A stretch of DNA of 64,000 nt, from the NCBI GenBank assembly GCA_001577345.1, contig LSLI01000003.1, forward strand, positions 1 to 64,000, in the 5' to 3' direction. How positions within the stretch are numbered: the stretch's first letter is position 1; each line of letters starts with the position of its first letter. The stretch comes from Candidatus Gallionella acididurans. Lineage in GTDB: Bacteria > Pseudomonadota > Gammaproteobacteria > Burkholderiales > Gallionellaceae. Positions 48,781 to 60,991 of the stretch are shown one piece after another. The notes beneath the pieces were generated by a model. The model saw nothing but the letters and a program-made list of their open reading frames with translations, did no database searches and was not told where the DNA came from. Both the position numbers and the translations under genes were made by a program.

Positions 48781-49611
48781 ATGACTATGGCTGCAAAATT
48801 GATACTTAGCATGGACGGGGCGGTACTTAAAGAGTTTCCACTTAACAAGGAGCGCATGACTATTGGCCGCAAGGAACATAATGATGTTGCCATAGACAAT
48901 CTTGCAGTAAGTGGCGAGCACGCTGCTATTGTTACCATACTGCACGATTCCTTCCTTGAGGATCTGGATAGTACCAATGGGCTGGAAGTCAACGGGGTAC
49001 CGACAAAAAAGCATTTTCTGCAAAACAACGATGTGATAGGGATCGGCAAATACAGGCTGAAATATATCAGTGATCAAGTCACCCAGACCACTCCTGCCGA
49101 TTTCGAAAAAACGATGGTGATGCGCAGTCCACCCAAACAGTTTGCTCCAAGCGCAAGTAATCCCCCAACCAGCCAGGGTCCTGCGCACGGGCTGGCCGGA
49201 AGCAAGCCCTTGCAAAGTGAAGCGATTGAAAAAACCGGGAAATTCGAAGCTCAAAAAATCACGACACCGGGCGCCCCCAGTCAAGCAGCTGCACCGGCAG
49301 TCCCGGAATCTGCGCCCAAACCGGCTCCGCAAGCTGGCGTTCCGCAGCAAGTCGCGGTGGTACAAGTCTTGACCGGGCCAAACGCGGGCAAGGAGCTGGA
49401 GTTGATAAAAAACCTCACCACGCTGGGCAAGCCTGGCTTGCAGGTGGCTGTATTGACGAGGCGTCCGCAGGGGTATTTTATCACCCATGTCGAAGGGGAT
49501 AGTTTCCCTTTGGTGAATGGCCAGGCGCTTACGAACCAGGCGCGCCAGTTGAAAGAACATGACGTGATCGAGCTGGCGGGGGTCAAGATGGAATTCTATT
49601 TCAAGGGTTAG
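48781..49611 (+). CDS. FHA domain protein with a probable second C-terminal FHA-like domain
   Basis: MTIGRKEHNDVAIDNLAVSGEHAAI...DLDSTNGLEVNG; Ala/Pro-rich linker; C-terminal TTLGKPGLQVAVLTRRPQGYFITHVEGDSFPLVNG. Confidence 0.88.
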   Translation: MTMAAKLILSMDGAVLKEFPLNKERMTIGRKEHNDVAIDNLAVSGEHAAIVTILHDSFLEDLDSTNGLEVNGVPTKKHFLQNNDVIGIGKYRLKYISDQVTQTTPADFEKTMVMRSPPKQFAPSASNPPTSQGPAHGLAGSKPLQSEAIEKTGKFEAQKITTPGAPSQAAAPAVPESAPKPAPQAGVPQQVAVVQVLTGPNAGKELELIKNLTTLGKPGLQVAVLTRRPQGYFITHVEGDSFPLVNGQALTNQARQLKEHDVIELAGVKMEFYFKG

Positions 49612-49687
49612 TAGTGGGAATAAGACAGAAGGCCGTGGTGCCCGGTGTCTCTCGCCGGGCCGGACAGTCCGGTAGCCATTCGACCGT

Positions 49688-51997
49688 ATGGCAGAATCCT
49701 TGCCGCTGCTGTGCCGGATATGTATTGAAGCTGCCGCGTGGCGACGCAAACAAGTTTTTCCTCTGTTCTTCGCCGTGAAAAAAAGAGCAATCCTGATCGT
49801 ACTCGGGCTATTGATCGTCCTGGTCTTTGTGGGCAATGCCGCCCGGTTTTACAGGCTGGATTTTGTCGCCCAACTGTCATCGCTCATATACGACTACCGC
49901 ATGCGCTTGACGATGCCGCGGACACTGGATCATCGTATCGTTATTCTTGACATCGACGAAAAGAGCCTGAAGGAGGAGGGGCGCTGGCCATGGGGACGAG
50001 ACCGCTTGGCTCTGTTGATGGATGAGTTGTTCGATAAATACGGTATAGCCGAGGTGGGATTTGACGTGGTTTTTGCCGAAAGGGATGACAGTTCCGGTCT
50101 GAAGGAATTGGAAAAGCTCGGGCAGAACCAGCTCAAAAATGATGCCACGTTTCAATCGGTTCTCAGCCGGGTCAAGCCGCAACTCGAGTATGACGAGTTG
50201 TTTGCGGACAAGATCAGAAATCGCAAGGTGGTGCTGGGATATTACCTGAACAATCAGAAAAATATCAATGTGTCGGGGAGCCTGCCGGAACCGGTTTTCC
50301 CTGCCGGGACATTCAATGGTTATCCGATTGAGTTCACTACCTGGAATGGCTATGGCGGGAATCTTCACGAATTGCAGCAAGCTGCCGCGGATGCCGGACA
50401 TTTCAATCCCATGGTGGACTCCGATGGTCGCGTGCGCCGCGTGCCCATGTTGGCCGAATATGCAGGTGCATATTACGAATCCCTATCGCTTGCGATGGTG
50501 CGCACCCTGCTGGGCTATCCAAAACTGGTACCCGGTTTCGCCAGCTTGAAGAGCGGCGGATATACGGGCTTGGAGTGGCTGGAACTGGAAGTTACCGGGG
50601 GCAATCTGAAAATCCCCGTGGACAGGGATGTGGCCACCTTTGTGCCATACCGTGGAAAACAAGGGAGTTTCCGTTATATTTCGGCCACGGATGTGCTTCA
50701 TGGCAGGGTCGACATCTCGCAGCTGAAAGACAAGATCGTTCTGGTAGGTACCACTGCTCCGGGGCTGATGGATATGCGCTCAACCCCTGTGGATGAGGTT
50801 TATCCCGGTGTGGAAGTCCACGCCAACCTGATTGCTGGTATTCTCGACCAGAATTTGAAGCAGCGGCCGGCCTATATGCTCGGAGCTGAAGTGATCTGGT
50901 TGTTGCTGATCGGTATCGCATTGAACTTTTTGTTGCCGCTGTTCAGTCCGGCAAAGGCAATTCTGACCTCGGTACTTGTGCTGGGCACTACTGTGGCGCT
51001 GAGCCTGCTGATGTGGACATATGCGGATATTGTGATGCCTGTGGCTAATAGTATCGTTATGATCGTGCTGTTGTTTGCCTTGAACATGTCTTACGGCTAC
51101 TTCGTGGAATCGCGTATCAAGCGGCAAATCACCGGACTGTTCGGGCAGTATGTTCCCGGCGAATTAGTCGAAGAAATGGCGAAACACCCGGAAAGCGTGT
51201 CCATGGAAGGCGAGAGTCGGGAAATGACGATCCTGTTTTCTGATGTGCGCGGCTTTACAACCATAGCGGAAAGCCTGGAACCCAAGGAATTAGCACTGTT
51301 GATGCATGACTTTCTGACTCCCTTGTCGCGTGTGGTTTATAAGCACCACGGCACGATAGACAAATATATGGGTGATTGCATCATGGCATTTTGGGGCGCG
51401 CCATTGCACGATCCTGATCATGCGCGCAATGCCATGCTGGCTGCAATCGAGATGCAGATGACCTTGCAGAGCTTGCAGCCATTCTTCAAGGGACGAGGCT
51501 GGCCTGAGATACGCGCGGGTATAGGCATCAACACCGGACGCGTCAGTGTGGGCAACATGGGTTCCGAACTTCGTGTAGCCTACACGGTGATGGGCGATGA
51601 AGTGAATTTGGCTTCGCGCCTGGAAGGTTTAACCAAACAATACGGGGTTGACCTGATAGTAGGTGAAAATACCCGGAATACCGCAACCGATTTTATTTAC
51701 CGTGAACTTGACCATGTGCGGGTAAAAGGTAAAGATAAGCCCGTTGCGATTTACGAACCATTGGGATTGGCCGGTGAGGCGAGCAAGGAACTGCATGATG
51801 AAGTGAGATGGTTCCATGATGCGCGTCGTTACTACCGTAAACAGGATTGGGAACAGGCGGAGTTACAATTGATGAATTTGCAGCGCATGTTTCCGGCTAT
51901 AGAACTGTATAGAATGTATGCGGAGCGCGTGGCTTTCTACCGTAAAAATCCGCCATCCGCAGACTGGGATGGCGTGTTCGTGTTCGAGACCAAGTAA
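49688..51997 (+). CDS. CHASE2 domain-containing class III adenylate/guanylate cyclase
   Basis: CHASE2-like HRIVILDIDEKSLKEEGRWPWGRDRLALLMDEL; cyclase MTILFSDVRGFTTIAESLEP, DKYMGDCIMAFWGAP, GIGINTGRVSVGNMGS; actual start may be GTG 49775. Confidence 0.92.
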   Translation: MAESLPLLCRICIEAAAWRRKQVFPLFFAVKKRAILIVLGLLIVLVFVGNAARFYRLDFVAQLSSLIYDYRMRLTMPRTLDHRIVILDIDEKSLKEEGRWPWGRDRLALLMDELFDKYGIAEVGFDVVFAERDDSSGLKELEKLGQNQLKNDATFQSVLSRVKPQLEYDELFADKIRNRKVVLGYYLNNQKNINVSGSLPEPVFPAGTFNGYPIEFTTWNGYGGNLHELQQAAADAGHFNPMVDSDGRVRRVPMLAEYAGAYYESLSLAMVRTLLGYPKLVPGFASLKSGGYTGLEWLELEVTGGNLKIPVDRDVATFVPYRGKQGSFRYISATDVLHGRVDISQLKDKIVLVGTTAPGLMDMRSTPVDEVYPGVEVHANLIAGILDQNLKQRPAYMLGAEVIWLLLIGIALNFLLPLFSPAKAILTSVLVLGTTVALSLLMWTYADIVMPVANSIVMIVLLFALNMSYGYFVESRIKRQITGLFGQYVPGELVEEMAKHPESVSMEGESREMTILFSDVRGFTTIAESLEPKELALLMHDFLTPLSRVVYKHHGTIDKYMGDCIMAFWGAPLHDPDHARNAMLAAIEMQMTLQSLQPFFKGRGWPEIRAGIGINTGRVSVGNMGSELRVAYTVMGDEVNLASRLEGLTKQYGVDLIVGENTRNTATDFIYRELDHVRVKGKDKPVAIYEPLGLAGEASKELHDEVRWFHDARRYYRKQDWEQAELQLMNLQRMFPAIELYRMYAERVAFYRKNPPSADWDGVFVFETK

Positions 51998-52040
51998 TCC
52001 GTTATTTTTCCCGATAAACATTCAGGATAATCAAAACATC

Positions 52041-52805
52041 ATGAAGCTAAGGGTATTGGGATGCAGCGGTGGTATCGGTGGCAATCTGCGCACCACTTCG
52101 TTCCTGTTGGACCAGGATGTGCTGATTGACGCCGGCACCGGGGTGACAGAACTCAGCCTTACTGAACTTGCCTTGGTTGATCATGTTTTTGTTACCCACT
52201 CCCATCTCGATCATATCGCTTGCATTCCCTTCATGGTTGACAGTGTCGGGTTCATGCGGGATAAGCCGTTAACCGTTCACGCAACCGAGGAAACCCAGGA
52301 AATTCTCAGGCAACATATTTTCAACTGGAAAATATGGCCGGATTTCACTGAAATACCCAATGTTCGCCAGCCCTACATGCGTTACCAGTCCATCGAGCTG
52401 GGCGTGCCCCGGGTTTTGAACGGGCGGAAAATAACTGCCATACCAGCCAACCATGTTGTTCCGGCGGTCGGCTACCATCTGGACAGCGGTGCGGCCAGTT
52501 TGATATTCAGCGGGGATACCACATCCAATGACGCACTATGGGATGTGGTTAACAAAATTAATAATTTGCGATACCTTATCATAGAGACGGCATTCCCCAA
52601 TAGCGAGAAAGACCTGGCGATTATTTCCAAGCATCTTTGCCCCAGTATGCTCGCCGAAGAATTGGCAAAACTGACTCGCGAGGCGGAGATTTTCATCACT
52701 CACCTTAAACCGGGCGAGTTGGAAATCACCATGACGGAAATCGAGGACTGCGTGCTCGGATTGCGCCCCAGAATGTTGCTCAATAATCAAGTATTCGAAT
52801 TTTGA
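52041..52805 (+). CDS. Metallo-beta-lactamase-fold hydrolase, class II 3',5'-cyclic-nucleotide phosphodiesterase-like
   Basis: MKLRVLGCSGGIGGNLRTTSFLLDQDVLIDAGTG, VTHSHLDHIACIPFMVD, FSGDTTSND. Confidence 0.75.
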   Translation: MKLRVLGCSGGIGGNLRTTSFLLDQDVLIDAGTGVTELSLTELALVDHVFVTHSHLDHIACIPFMVDSVGFMRDKPLTVHATEETQEILRQHIFNWKIWPDFTEIPNVRQPYMRYQSIELGVPRVLNGRKITAIPANHVVPAVGYHLDSGAASLIFSGDTTSNDALWDVVNKINNLRYLIIETAFPNSEKDLAIISKHLCPSMLAEELAKLTREAEIFITHLKPGELEITMTEIEDCVLGLRPRMLLNNQVFEF

Positions 52806-53031
52806 AGAATAAAGATGATTTTCATTTTTAAGCTTCCCGAAGCATCAATTTTTCAGGCTGAGGTTAGTGAGATCTGGAACATCATGCAGATTGACCTGAA
52901 AAATCTTCAGGCAGGCGCAGACCGGAAGTCCGGGCGCAAACCGCAAGTAAAATGCAGGTTTTGATCGATGGATTATGGATGGTGCCGAGACCGGTACGAA
53001 ACAGCCTCATGAAACAGGCAAGGGAGTGGAA

Positions 53032-55435
53032 ATGAGCACAGTTATGGCAGCCAAAACCGCATCAAGCAATGCCGGTGATATCAAGGCCAAGCTTGAGTTT
53101 ACCAAGAGCCTCAATCAGGTCAGCAACAAGATCCACGCCACCGGCAACGTTGATGAAATTATGCTGGACGTCAGCAGGGACATCTGCGCGTTGTTCAATG
53201 CAGACAGGTTGACGATTTATGTTGTGGGCGAAGACAATATTTCACTGGTTTCCAAGGTCAAGACCGGCCTTAACTCCTTCAAGGATTTAAAGTTGCCCAT
53301 TGCCGAGCAGAGCCTTGCCGGATACGCGGCAATGCATAAAAAATTGCTCAACATAAAAGATGTCTATGATGAGAAGGAACTGGCCGGATACAGTCCCCAT
53401 CTGCGGTTTTTGCAGGAAGTTGACAAGCGTACCGGATACCGCACCAAGCAAATGCTGGTCGCGCCTATACTGGATGCATCCCATGGTGATCTTGTCGGCG
53501 TAATCCAGGTAATCAACAACAAGGCCGGTGCCCCTTTTGCCGTTTTGATCGAAGAGGGTGTGCAGGAACTGGCGCAGACCATGGCGGTGGCACTGCGCCA
53601 ACATCTGCGCCAGCGTGAAAGTTCGATTAAAACAAAATACGATTACTTGGTGGCAGACGGGGTTCTTTCCGCTGCAGAGTTTGAGCTGGCAACACGTACA
53701 GCAAGGCACACAGGGTATAGATGTTGAAGAAGTGCTCACCGACGAATTCCAGGTCACTGTCCCGGCCCTGGGTAAGGCGTTGTCCAGTTTCTTTGGAGTG
53801 CCATATGAGGCCTATCGTGGAGACCGCCTCAAACCTGCAGAATTATTGAAAAATCTGAGGCGCGAGTATGTCGAAAGCAGCCGCTGGGTTCCACTCCTGG
53901 AATCTCAGGAGGGATTGGTGATATTGACCACTGACCCGGAGCGCATTCAGGCTTCGCGCGTGGTCAACAATATTTTTCCTAAAAACCGGCTGGTCTATCA
54001 GGTTTGTTCGCAGCGCGAATTCACTCAAACCTTGAATCTGTTCTATGGCGGCGGCGCTGCTTCGGAAGGTGGAGGCGGCATGGCCGATGAGTCGTCCATG
54101 GATGACATATTGTCCAGTATGGGAGGTGATGAAGAAGAGGGGATCGTTACTCCCGATGAAGTCAGTGCCGCCGCCGATAACGAACTGGTCAAGCTGGTCA
54201 ACAAAGTCATCGTTGATGCTTACCGGATGGGTGCTTCGGACATTCATGTCGAGCCCGGACCGGGCAAGGCCAAGACACAGATTCGGGTGCGCAAAGACGG
54301 GTCATTGTTGAACTACATCGAAGTTCCATCAACTTATCGCAACGCACTGATAACGCGCATCAAGATCATGTGCGATCTGGATATTTCCGAGAAACGCAAG
54401 CCGCAGGACGGCAAAATAAAATTCAAGAAATTCGGCCCGCTGGACATCGAGTTGCGTGTCGCGACAATTCCCTCACAAGGCGGCGTGGAAGACGTGGTGA
54501 TGCGTATTCTGGCCTCGGGAGAACCGTTGCCGCTGGAGAAAATGGGTTTTTCGGCACGCAACAATGAACTGATCCGGACAACGGTGACCAAGCCGTATGG
54601 ATTGTTCTTTGTATGCGGCCCGACAGGCTCTGGCAAGACCACCACGCTGCATTCCATACTCAAGTATATCAACAAGCCGGAAACCAAGATCTGGACCGTC
54701 GAAGATCCGGTGGAGATTACCCAGAAGGGCTTGCGCCAGGTGCAGATCAACAAAAAAGCCGGGCTGGATTTCCCCACCATCATGCGCGCCTTCCTGCGCG
54801 CTGACCCGGATGTGATCATGGTCGGCGAAATGCGCGACAAGGAAACCGTGTCCATCGGCATCGAAGCCTCATTGACCGGCCATCTGGTGTTTGCCACGCT
54901 GCATACCAATAGCGCCCCGGAATCCATCAACCGCCTGCTGGATATGGGCATGGATCCATTCAACTTTGCCGATGCCTTGCTGGGTATATTGGCGCAGCGC
55001 TTGGGGAAGCGCCTGTGCGGCGATTGCAAGAAGCCGCATATAGCGACTGCCGACGAAATAAAGTCGATGCTCACCGAATTCAGCTCTGAGTTGACTAACA
55101 TCGCCAGCTGGAAAAAAGACCCGGTTGCGGCGATGAAGAATTTGTATAACGAATGGGTAAAATCATTCGCCGACCCCAAGGGTCAATTCACCCTTTATAC
55201 CCCGGTGGGTTGTGAGAAATGCACCGGCACCGGCTATCGCGGGCGGGTTGGTTTGCATGAATTGCTGATAGGCACCGATCCGATCAAGAAGGCGGTCCAG
55301 GAGCGCGCCCGTGTTGCCGATTTGCTGGCCATCGCATTGGAGGAAGGGATGCGTACCCTGAAGCAGGATGGCATTGAGAAAGTGCTGCAAGGCATTACCG
55401 ATATGCACCAGGTACGGGCTGTCTGCATAAAGTAG
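53032..55435 (+). pseudogene. GAF - GspE/PulE-family ATPase, split by an apparent +1 frameshift at GGG 53713-53715
   Basis: Frame 1 ORF (to 53727) carries GAF and the start of the GspE N-domain (YLVADGVLSAAEFELATRTARHTG); frame 2 ORF resumes IDVEEVLTDEFQVTVPALGKALSSFFGVPYEAYRGDRLKP and runs through CGPTGSGKTTTLHSIL; removing one G joins them. Confidence 0.8.
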
Positions 55436-55500
55436 GAGAAGCCCATGAATTTTATCCGCGTTTTTTCCGACGTATTTTTCCGGTTTTGCTGATATCTCGT

Positions 55501-57126
55501 ATGCATTCCACAGATAAACTCCTGCACCGGTTGAAGGAACTCAATGAGATCGGTATCGCGCTGTCCCGGCAGCGCGATACCAGCAGTTTGATGGAAACCA
55601 TACTGGAAGCGGCAAAACGCATAACGAATGCCGATGCCGGCACGCTCTATCTTCACGAGCCGGAACAGCGGGTGCTGCGCTTCGAGATTCTGCGCAACGA
55701 TACGCTTGATACGGCGATGGGCGGAACCAGGGGCACCCCGATCAGTTTTTATCCTGTTCAGCTTTACGACGAGGATGGCAATCCCAATCACGCCATGGTG
55801 GTCAGTCACTCTGCGCTCAGCGGAGAAACAGTGAATATTCCCGATGCCTATATGGCCAGGGGATTTGATTTTTCAGGCACCAAGAAGTTTGATGCCAAGA
55901 CCGGCTACCGTTCGAAGTCGTTTCTCACCGTGCCGATGCGCAACCATGAAAATGAAGTCATCGGTGTGCTGCAGCTGATCAATGCACAAGACCGCGAAAG
56001 CAGCGAGATCGTTCCTTTTTCGTCTGACGATCAGCAGTTGCTGGAATCACTCTCTTCCCAGGCTGCCATAGCATTGACAAACCGCCATCTCATTGAACAG
56101 CTGGAAGGATTGTTCGAGGCATTCATCCAGCTCATCAATAACGCCATAGACGATAAATCACCCTACACGGGCGGTCACTGCGCGCGCGTTCCTGAACTCA
56201 CAATGTTGCTGGCGGAAGCCGTCAATCGCACCACCCAGGGGCCGTTCAGGGATTTTGTGATGACTGACAAAGACCGTCGGGAGCTCAGGATAGCCGGTTT
56301 GCTGCATGACTGCGGCAAGATCACTACACCGGTTCATGTGGTGGATAAGGCGACCAAGTTGCACACCTTGTTTGACAGGATTCAACTGGTGGACACGCGC
56401 TTTGAGGTGATCAAGCGCGATGCCGAGATTGCCATGTTGCGCGAAGTCGCGGCAGCGGGCAGTGATATTCAGCGTGCCGATGCCGCCCGCCAGAATTATG
56501 CCGCGCGAATAACGCAACTAGACCAGGATCGTGAGTTTTTGCGCCACTGCAATGTCGGAAGTGAAGCGATGTCCGGCGAGGCACAGCAGCGCGTGCGCCA
56601 GATCGCAGCCTACCAATGGCGCGATGCCGAGGGCAAAGCGTGCAATTTTCTCAGTGCGGATGAAGTGGAGAATCTTACTATCCGTGCCGGCACGCTGACT
56701 GCGGCTGAGCGGGAAATCATCAACCACCACATCGAAGTTACCATCAAGATGCTGGAGTCTTTGCCTTGGCCCAGCCACCTGAAAAATGTCGCGGAATATG
56801 CGGGCGGCCATCACGAACGTATGGATGGCAAAGGTTATCCGCGCGGCCTGACACGAGATCAGATGTCGGTGCAGGCCAGGGTCATGGGTATTGCGGATAT
56901 CTTTGAGGCGCTCACCGCCAAGGATAGACCATACAAAAAAGGAAAAACCCTTACCGAGTCGCTGACTATTCTCGGTAAATTCAAGCTGGGTGGGCATATC
57001 GACCCTGACTTATTTGACGTATTCATACGGGAGAAGGTCTATCTCGACTATGCACGGCAATTTCTTGCGCCCGAGCAGATAGACGAAGTGGATCTGGAAC
57101 GGATTCCCGGTGTGGATTTACACTAA
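55501..57126 (+). CDS. GAF - HD-GYP domain protein (c-di-GMP phosphodiesterase type)
   Basis: GAF region NADAGTLYLHEPEQRVLRFE; LLHDCGKITTPVHVVDKATKLH; YAGGHHERMDGKGYPRGL. Confidence 0.9.
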   Translation: MHSTDKLLHRLKELNEIGIALSRQRDTSSLMETILEAAKRITNADAGTLYLHEPEQRVLRFEILRNDTLDTAMGGTRGTPISFYPVQLYDEDGNPNHAMVVSHSALSGETVNIPDAYMARGFDFSGTKKFDAKTGYRSKSFLTVPMRNHENEVIGVLQLINAQDRESSEIVPFSSDDQQLLESLSSQAAIALTNRHLIEQLEGLFEAFIQLINNAIDDKSPYTGGHCARVPELTMLLAEAVNRTTQGPFRDFVMTDKDRRELRIAGLLHDCGKITTPVHVVDKATKLHTLFDRIQLVDTRFEVIKRDAEIAMLREVAAAGSDIQRADAARQNYAARITQLDQDREFLRHCNVGSEAMSGEAQQRVRQIAAYQWRDAEGKACNFLSADEVENLTIRAGTLTAAEREIINHHIEVTIKMLESLPWPSHLKNVAEYAGGHHERMDGKGYPRGLTRDQMSVQARVMGIADIFEALTAKDRPYKKGKTLTESLTILGKFKLGGHIDPDLFDVFIREKVYLDYARQFLAPEQIDEVDLERIPGVDLH

Positions 57127-57328: not shown

Positions 57329-57916
57329 ATGTTAAAAAACATACAAAAGGGTTTTACCCTGATCGAACTGATGATCGTGGTCGCGATCATCGGCATTCTG
57401 GCTGCCGTGGCAATTCCCGCCTACGGCGATTACACAGCCCGTGCGCAAGCTGCTGAAGCTTTTACCTTGCTGGACGGTTTGAAGACACCGTTAACCGAAG
57501 CGTGGACAACGTCAACCATTTTTGCACTCGACTCGTCAGGCCTTTCCGGTGTTACGGCTATCGTTTCGGGTAAATATGTCGCGGCCATTAACGTAGGTGC
57601 CGTGGGTACGGGTACTTTAGGATATCCTGCGCTACCGACCGCAGTAACAGTTCAACCATTCGACGTCGTGGCACAGTTCCAACCAGTATCAACCAAAACT
57701 GCGAGTCCCAGGATAGCAGGGCTTAGTGTGCACATGTATTACAATCCGACCAGTGGTTCGTGGACTTGCGCCAATGGGGACGGTGCCAATGATGACACAA
57801 CAGCTACTACTGCTGCTGGAGTGGGTCAGACAGTACCTGTCGCTTCGATGGTAGCCAAAGCAGGCGCTACTAGTACTACGATCCCGTCAAACGTGCTGCC
57901 TAAGGCTTGCACATAA
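57329..57916 (+). CDS. Type IV pilin (PilA/PilE-like)
   Basis: [40 protein letters not shown]-terminal Cys pair. Confidence 0.95.
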
Positions 57917-59692: not shown

Positions 59693-60991
59693 ATGGACAA
59701 GATCGGAAAATATGAAGTCGTGCGTGAAATCGGCACCGGTGCAACCAGTACAGTATACCTTGCGATCGATCCTTTTAACTCGCAGCAGGTCGCCATCAAA
59801 TTGATTGACCTGGGAATTTTGCGTGACACGAATCGCGCCAAGGTATATCGCAAGCTGTTTATGACCGAGGCGTCACTGGCGGGCAAGTTGTCTCATCCGC
59901 ATATCGCAAAGATTCTTGACGCAGAAATGTACGGCAACATCAACTATGTGGTGATGGAGTATGTGGAAGGCAGTACTCTTGAACAATATGCCGAAGTGGA
60001 CAAGTTGTTGCCGGTCAGTACTGTTGCCGAAATTGCCTACAAGTGCTGCAAGGCGCTCGAGTACGCGCAGCACCAGGGCGTGATACATCGCGACATCAAG
60101 CCGGCCAATATCCTCTTGCAGGGCGAAACCGACATAAAAATTTCCGATTTTGGCGCGGCAGCCTTGCAGAGCGACCAATCAACCCAGGTGTCGGGAGTGG
60201 GATCGCCGGCATATATGTCACCCGAGCAGGTCATGGAACTCAAGTTGACCCACCAGACGGATATATACTCGCTGGGAGTGGTGATGTACAAGTTGCTTAC
60301 CGGCAAGCTGCCATTTGATGCGACCAATAACCACAGCATGATCTACCATATCATCAATATCGAGCCGCCGCCGCCCAGCTCGTTTCGCCCGGAAATGGGG
60401 CCGGAACTGGATGCCATTGTGCGGCGCGCGATGGAGAAGGATACCACCAAGCGCTATCAGACATGGGATGAGTTTGCCAACGATCTGGTAGGCTTTTCCA
60501 GCCGCGTGTTGCCTACTCAAAACGAGATTCTGGATACCGAAAAATTTAATACCTTGCGCAGCCTGCAGTTCTTCAGGAATTTCAGTGATGTCGAGCTTTG
60601 GGAAGTGCTGCGCTTGAGCCTGTGGCGCAAGGTTGCGGATTCCGAATGCATACTTCGTGACGGTGAAAGCGGGCGCTCGTTTTTTGTCCTGGCACAGGGT
60701 ACGGTGCGCGTCACCAAGCAGGGCAGGTTGTTGAGCCTATTGCATCGCGGCGATTGTTTTGGTGAAATGGCGCACCTTATAGAACGCGATTTCAAGCGCA
60801 GTTCGGATGTGATCGCGAAGAACGATGTTGTAGTGATCGAAATCAACCCCGATATGCTGATGCATGCCACGATCGGATGCCGGTTGCAGTTCGGCGATGC
60901 ATTTTTGCGCATGCTGGTGAAGCGCTTGTCGGTGGCGAACACCCGTTTATCACATTTGTTGGCGGATCATAACCAGGCGGGAGAAGAGTAG
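59693..60991 (+). CDS. Serine/threonine protein kinase fused to a C-terminal cyclic-nucleotide-binding domain
   Basis: YEVVREIGTGATSTVYLAIDPFNSQQVAIKLI, VIHRDIKPANILLQ, ISDFGAAAL; C-terminal FFVLAQGTVRVTKQGRLLSLLHRGDCFGEMAHLIERDFKRSSDV. Confidence 0.92.
   Translation: MDKIGKYEVVREIGTGATSTVYLAIDPFNSQQVAIKLIDLGILRDTNRAKVYRKLFMTEASLAGKLSHPHIAKILDAEMYGNINYVVMEYVEGSTLEQYAEVDKLLPVSTVAEIAYKCCKALEYAQHQGVIHRDIKPANILLQGETDIKISDFGAAALQSDQSTQVSGVGSPAYMSPEQVMELKLTHQTDIYSLGVVMYKLLTGKLPFDATNNHSMIYHIINIEPPPPSSFRPEMGPELDAIVRRAMEKDTTKRYQTWDEFANDLVGFSSRVLPTQNEILDTEKFNTLRSLQFFRNFSDVELWEVLRLSLWRKVADSECILRDGESGRSFFVLAQGTVRVTKQGRLLSLLHRGDCFGEMAHLIERDFKRSSDVIAKNDVVVIEINPDMLMHATIGCRLQFGDAFLRMLVKRLSVANTRLSHLLADHNQAGEE

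Follow-up and report, generated by a model that had tools for sequence, protein, structure and literature searches.

The closest described relatives of the ATPase gene considered here are PilB/PilF, the assembly ATPase of the type IV-A pilus (TIGR02538; PDB 3jc8, 6f8l and 5zfr), and GspE, the ATPase of type II secretion (TIGR02533; PDB 4pht and 1p9r). By sequence, PilB/PilF are the best solved relatives, sharing with our gene a T2SSE core and an MshEN-type N region, and GspE shares the ATPase core and the paired-cysteine region (CGDCKKP and CEKCTG). Unlike either of them, the present gene carries an N-terminal GAF domain, and unlike PilB/PilF it sits in a signalling cluster. When scored with the NCBIfam equivalog models, its 3′ half, the only part compared, fell short of both PilB (465.7 against a cut-off of 675.65) and GspE (437.9 against 630.25). 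No type II secretion genes were seen among the neighbours examined.

In the window, the 64,000-nucleotide stretch that we analysed of a contig from Candidatus Gallionella acididurans, an iron-oxidising-type bacterium, this gene is present as two forward-strand halves, a GAF-domain frame (53032–53727) and an MshEN/T2SSE ATPase frame running to 55435, which lie one nucleotide out of register. The 5′ frame encodes the GAF domain (PF01590, E 3.8e-11) and the start of the GspE/PilB-type N region, and its start codon agrees with the MSTVMA of the relatives. It terminates in ELATRTARHTGYRC-stop, the tail being a few out-of-register residues followed by TGA. The open stretch of the second frame spans 53549–55435, so that the two frames overlap without stops from 53549 to 53727, and from 53717 onwards the second frame reads IDVEEVLTDEFQV and continues through the MshEN domain (PF05157, E 1.8e-10, 41.1 bits against a cut-off of 23.1) and the T2SSE domain (PF00437, E 1.6e-113, 379.6 bits against 24.9, profile positions 4–368 of 370), with the Walker A motif GPTGSGKTT intact (53717–55435). 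Thus, as judged from its domains, the gene product is a T2SSE-family motor ATPase with an N-terminal GAF sensor. The first-pass annotation had rightly recognized one gene with a single one-nucleotide lesion and otherwise intact halves; it had also placed a GspE N-domain at the junction, where an MshEN/GspE-N region is indeed found, and had left the preceding GAF domain unmentioned. In the orthologues from the same genus, the gene encodes a protein of about 800 amino acids in one frame, and an intact gene here would likewise give one protein, in which the GAF sensor is joined to a PilB/GspE-type hexameric ATPase with a presumed motor role.

Alignment of the local DNA with 29 same-genus relatives places the extra base at C53711 on the forward strand, within GGCACACAGGG. 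No other column pairs a base in the window with a gap in every one of the 29 relatives (CACA-C-AGGG, in a CACACA stretch). The adjacent G run, to which the insertion had originally been assigned, is in register in the same 29 relatives and lies a few bases off. Nearly all relatives read A-R/K-R-K-G-[IVL]-[DE] at the junction, with CGC or CGT, AAA or AAG, and GGN at the R-K-G stretch, so the G run is not where the change lies, and the continuous ARHTG|ID junction obtained by removing a G is not the ancestral one. The break interrupts a conserved part of the N region and lies ahead of the Pfam MshEN match. In addition, A53708, 3 nt upstream of the insertion, is private to this genome, every relative having G at this position; across the whole gene, about 1,020 columns are otherwise invariant, and the window has private changes at seven of them, this one included. 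A substitution so close to an insertion suggests that the two arose in one complex mutation or that the consensus is locally in error. The (CA)3 tract at the site is equally private, being partly the product of the A53708 change, and the relatives have CGCAAG or similar.

The lesion is not shared. A single open frame runs through the site in 28 of the 29 same-genus orthologues, the remaining one having an in-frame stop, and the gene is intact in 77 of 80 wider betaproteobacterial loci drawn from one-per-species genomes. The halves are therefore not normally separate genes, an outcome that the earlier reading had named as one that would overturn it. Across both sets, the exceptions amount to two in-frame stops, with one genome counted twice, and one frameshift at a different position of the gene; none of the relatives examined is frameshifted where the window has its insertion. 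The same-genus exception (G032, locus L018) has its stop at codon 227, which is the codon of the window's insertion, and L018 apparently lies on the same contig as locus L044 of the wider set (JACREA010000221.1, with identical length and match position). There, three private A-to-T changes, including the stop, occur within 41 nt, and the sequence of this region appears to be of poor quality. That it should break at the window's codon is a coincidence whose probability we estimate at about 1%. Of the other two exceptions in the 80-locus set, L066 has a stop at residue 159 and L107 is frameshifted near residues 74–86. All three are metagenome-assembled genome (MAG) records, and the relatives of the window's genome are themselves mostly Gallionella-type MAGs, which together with its own 316 contigs suggests that it, too, is a draft of this kind.

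Both halves are under normal purifying selection, with no sign of relaxed constraint. The median dN/dS values in comparisons with the window are 0.073 for the 5′ half and 0.064 for the 3′ half, as compared to 0.091 and 0.065 overall, although this test dates the lesion only coarsely, as the nearest relatives are about 88–89% identical in the ATPase half. Each half has one private change at an invariant residue. Given this constraint, the lesion is either very recent or not real, and selection on the gene either persists or ended very recently.

To gauge how common such lesions are, we compared 0.86 Mb of the window's assembly, a 316-contig draft, with 1.62 Mb of one relative in 5 contigs (G027). 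When the candidates were read, two clean frameshifts emerged in 273 matched genes: the ATPase gene, and a methyl-accepting chemotaxis protein gene (contig C2, around 62113; L126), in which a one-base frameshift is likewise accompanied by mismatches beside the extra base. Stop candidates from this comparison, several of which are antisense shadow frames, are not part of the frameshift count. Three further frameshift candidates (C8 39298, C8 20177 and C1 79521) were set aside, since on reading they look like over-extended reference starts before conserved genes. When the comparison was reversed, with 292 genes of the window's assembly set against the relative, no frameshifts emerged. The window's assembly was also searched for another copy of the region, or a version of it from another strain, and none was found. 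It is documented that assembly at low coverage can generate spurious frameshifts (PMC11017572). Like the spurious pseudogenes of draft assemblies, the present case shows one indel in a gene that is otherwise under constraint, within an assembly broken into many contigs; it differs in being judged here from the consensus sequence. This precedent and the second frameshift raise the odds of an error; yet a count of two is small, and genuine pseudogenes could account for it.

The lesion is thus best regarded as an ordinary one, due most likely either to faulty assembly or to a mutation of very recent origin, and between these two we infer that error is the better explanation. A consensus or assembly slip would have added one base at 53711 to a conserved betaproteobacterial GAF-MshEN-T2SSE gene, and the organism's own gene is probably intact. 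The relatives that read through the site, the unrelaxed halves, the second clean frameshift, the private change 3 nt away and the lesions in other MAGs all favour this explanation. On the other hand, the site lacks the long homopolymer that is the classical context for indel errors, two frameshifts in about 270 genes would also fit real pseudogenes, and the coincidence with the L044 stop weighs against an error. A real and very recent mutation, which we consider appreciably less likely but a serious contender, would either have inactivated the gene or left it to encode two products, a GAF protein and, through re-initiation of translation just past the stop, an ATPase. The non-homopolymer context and the intactness of the remainder of the gene suit such a mutation, as does a forward-strand GTG in the ATPase frame (53732–53734), 4 nt past the upstream TGA (53725–53727), from which translation could restart if the insertion is genuine. 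Moreover, a stand-alone GAF paralogue at locus L051 indicates that a GAF domain can form a gene of its own, and C5 and C35 encode other GspE/PilB-type ATPases with an MshEN domain, which might soften the loss. Against a real mutation stand the lack of decay and of relaxed selection, the second frameshift in the same assembly, which suggests errors, and the fact that no relative is frameshifted at this site.

The remaining explanations fare poorly. Of the four possibilities first put forward, error and very recent mutation survive, whereas phase variation and recoding do not. Phase variation, in which a reversible change in tract length toggles the ATPase on and off, could be imagined from the (CA)3 adjoining GGG, but these make up the only repeat tract at the site, far too short for usual slipped-strand switching; with the (CA)3 confined to this genome, and with no inverted repeats nearby and no hairpins or repeats able to cause an error or a switch found around the site, we hold this to be very improbable. 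Programmed +1 frameshifting or other recoding that yields the fused protein is slightly more improbable still: the stop-free overlap of the frames would permit it, but no orthologue needs a shift at the site, so that a conserved shift site is lacking, no known +1 slippery motif was recognized, and the predicted single-strand structure around the site, calculated with DNA parameters, is weaker than that of shuffled sequence (z 1.43). Just as little credence attaches to the idea that this lineage naturally has two separate genes here. The L044 stop at the same codon is the one observation that speaks for it, yet that stop belongs to the cluster of three A-to-T changes, nearly all other loci are fused, and the break lies inside the conserved N-region stretch, ahead of the Pfam MshEN match. 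It is also highly doubtful, to about the same degree as phase variation, that the insertion is real and that the gene now works through two products, a GAF sensor on its own and an MshEN ATPase that lacks the GAF domain and is produced by translational coupling, in which case the L044 stop would be a second, independently arisen split of this kind. If the insertion is an error, its effect is on annotation, where an intact, conserved ATPase is listed as broken and two genes are predicted for one; it has little import beyond that.

The cluster around the gene, whose order is kept across betaproteobacteria, is more interesting than the frameshift and merits experimental study. It spans 48781–57126 of the window and comprises an FHA protein, a CHASE2-adenylate/guanylate cyclase, an MBL-fold hydrolase (PDE-II-like), the GAF-MshEN-T2SSE ATPase and a GAF-HD-GYP protein. 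All five members occur together in 50 of the 80 betaproteobacterial loci, and 49 keep the same order; among the remaining loci, some are truncated where the contig ends, and others, for example in Nitrosomonas, have fewer members in the stretch covered. A search of the literature on this gene cluster found nothing close, and it appears to be conserved but little studied. A reasonable guess from its gene content is that it may link cyclic-nucleotide signalling to a pilus or secretion motor.

Several genes near these loci are also worth recording. The stand-alone GAF paralogue at L051 (JABFRF010000161.1, 4780–5328) is about 63% identical to the GAF part of the fused gene and lies directly upstream of it. 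Near the cluster in the window, a serine/threonine protein kinase is fused to a cyclic-nucleotide-binding domain (59693–60991). A type IV pilin-like gene (57329–57916) follows the GAF-HD-GYP gene, and only 9 of the 80 loci have such a gene close to the cluster.
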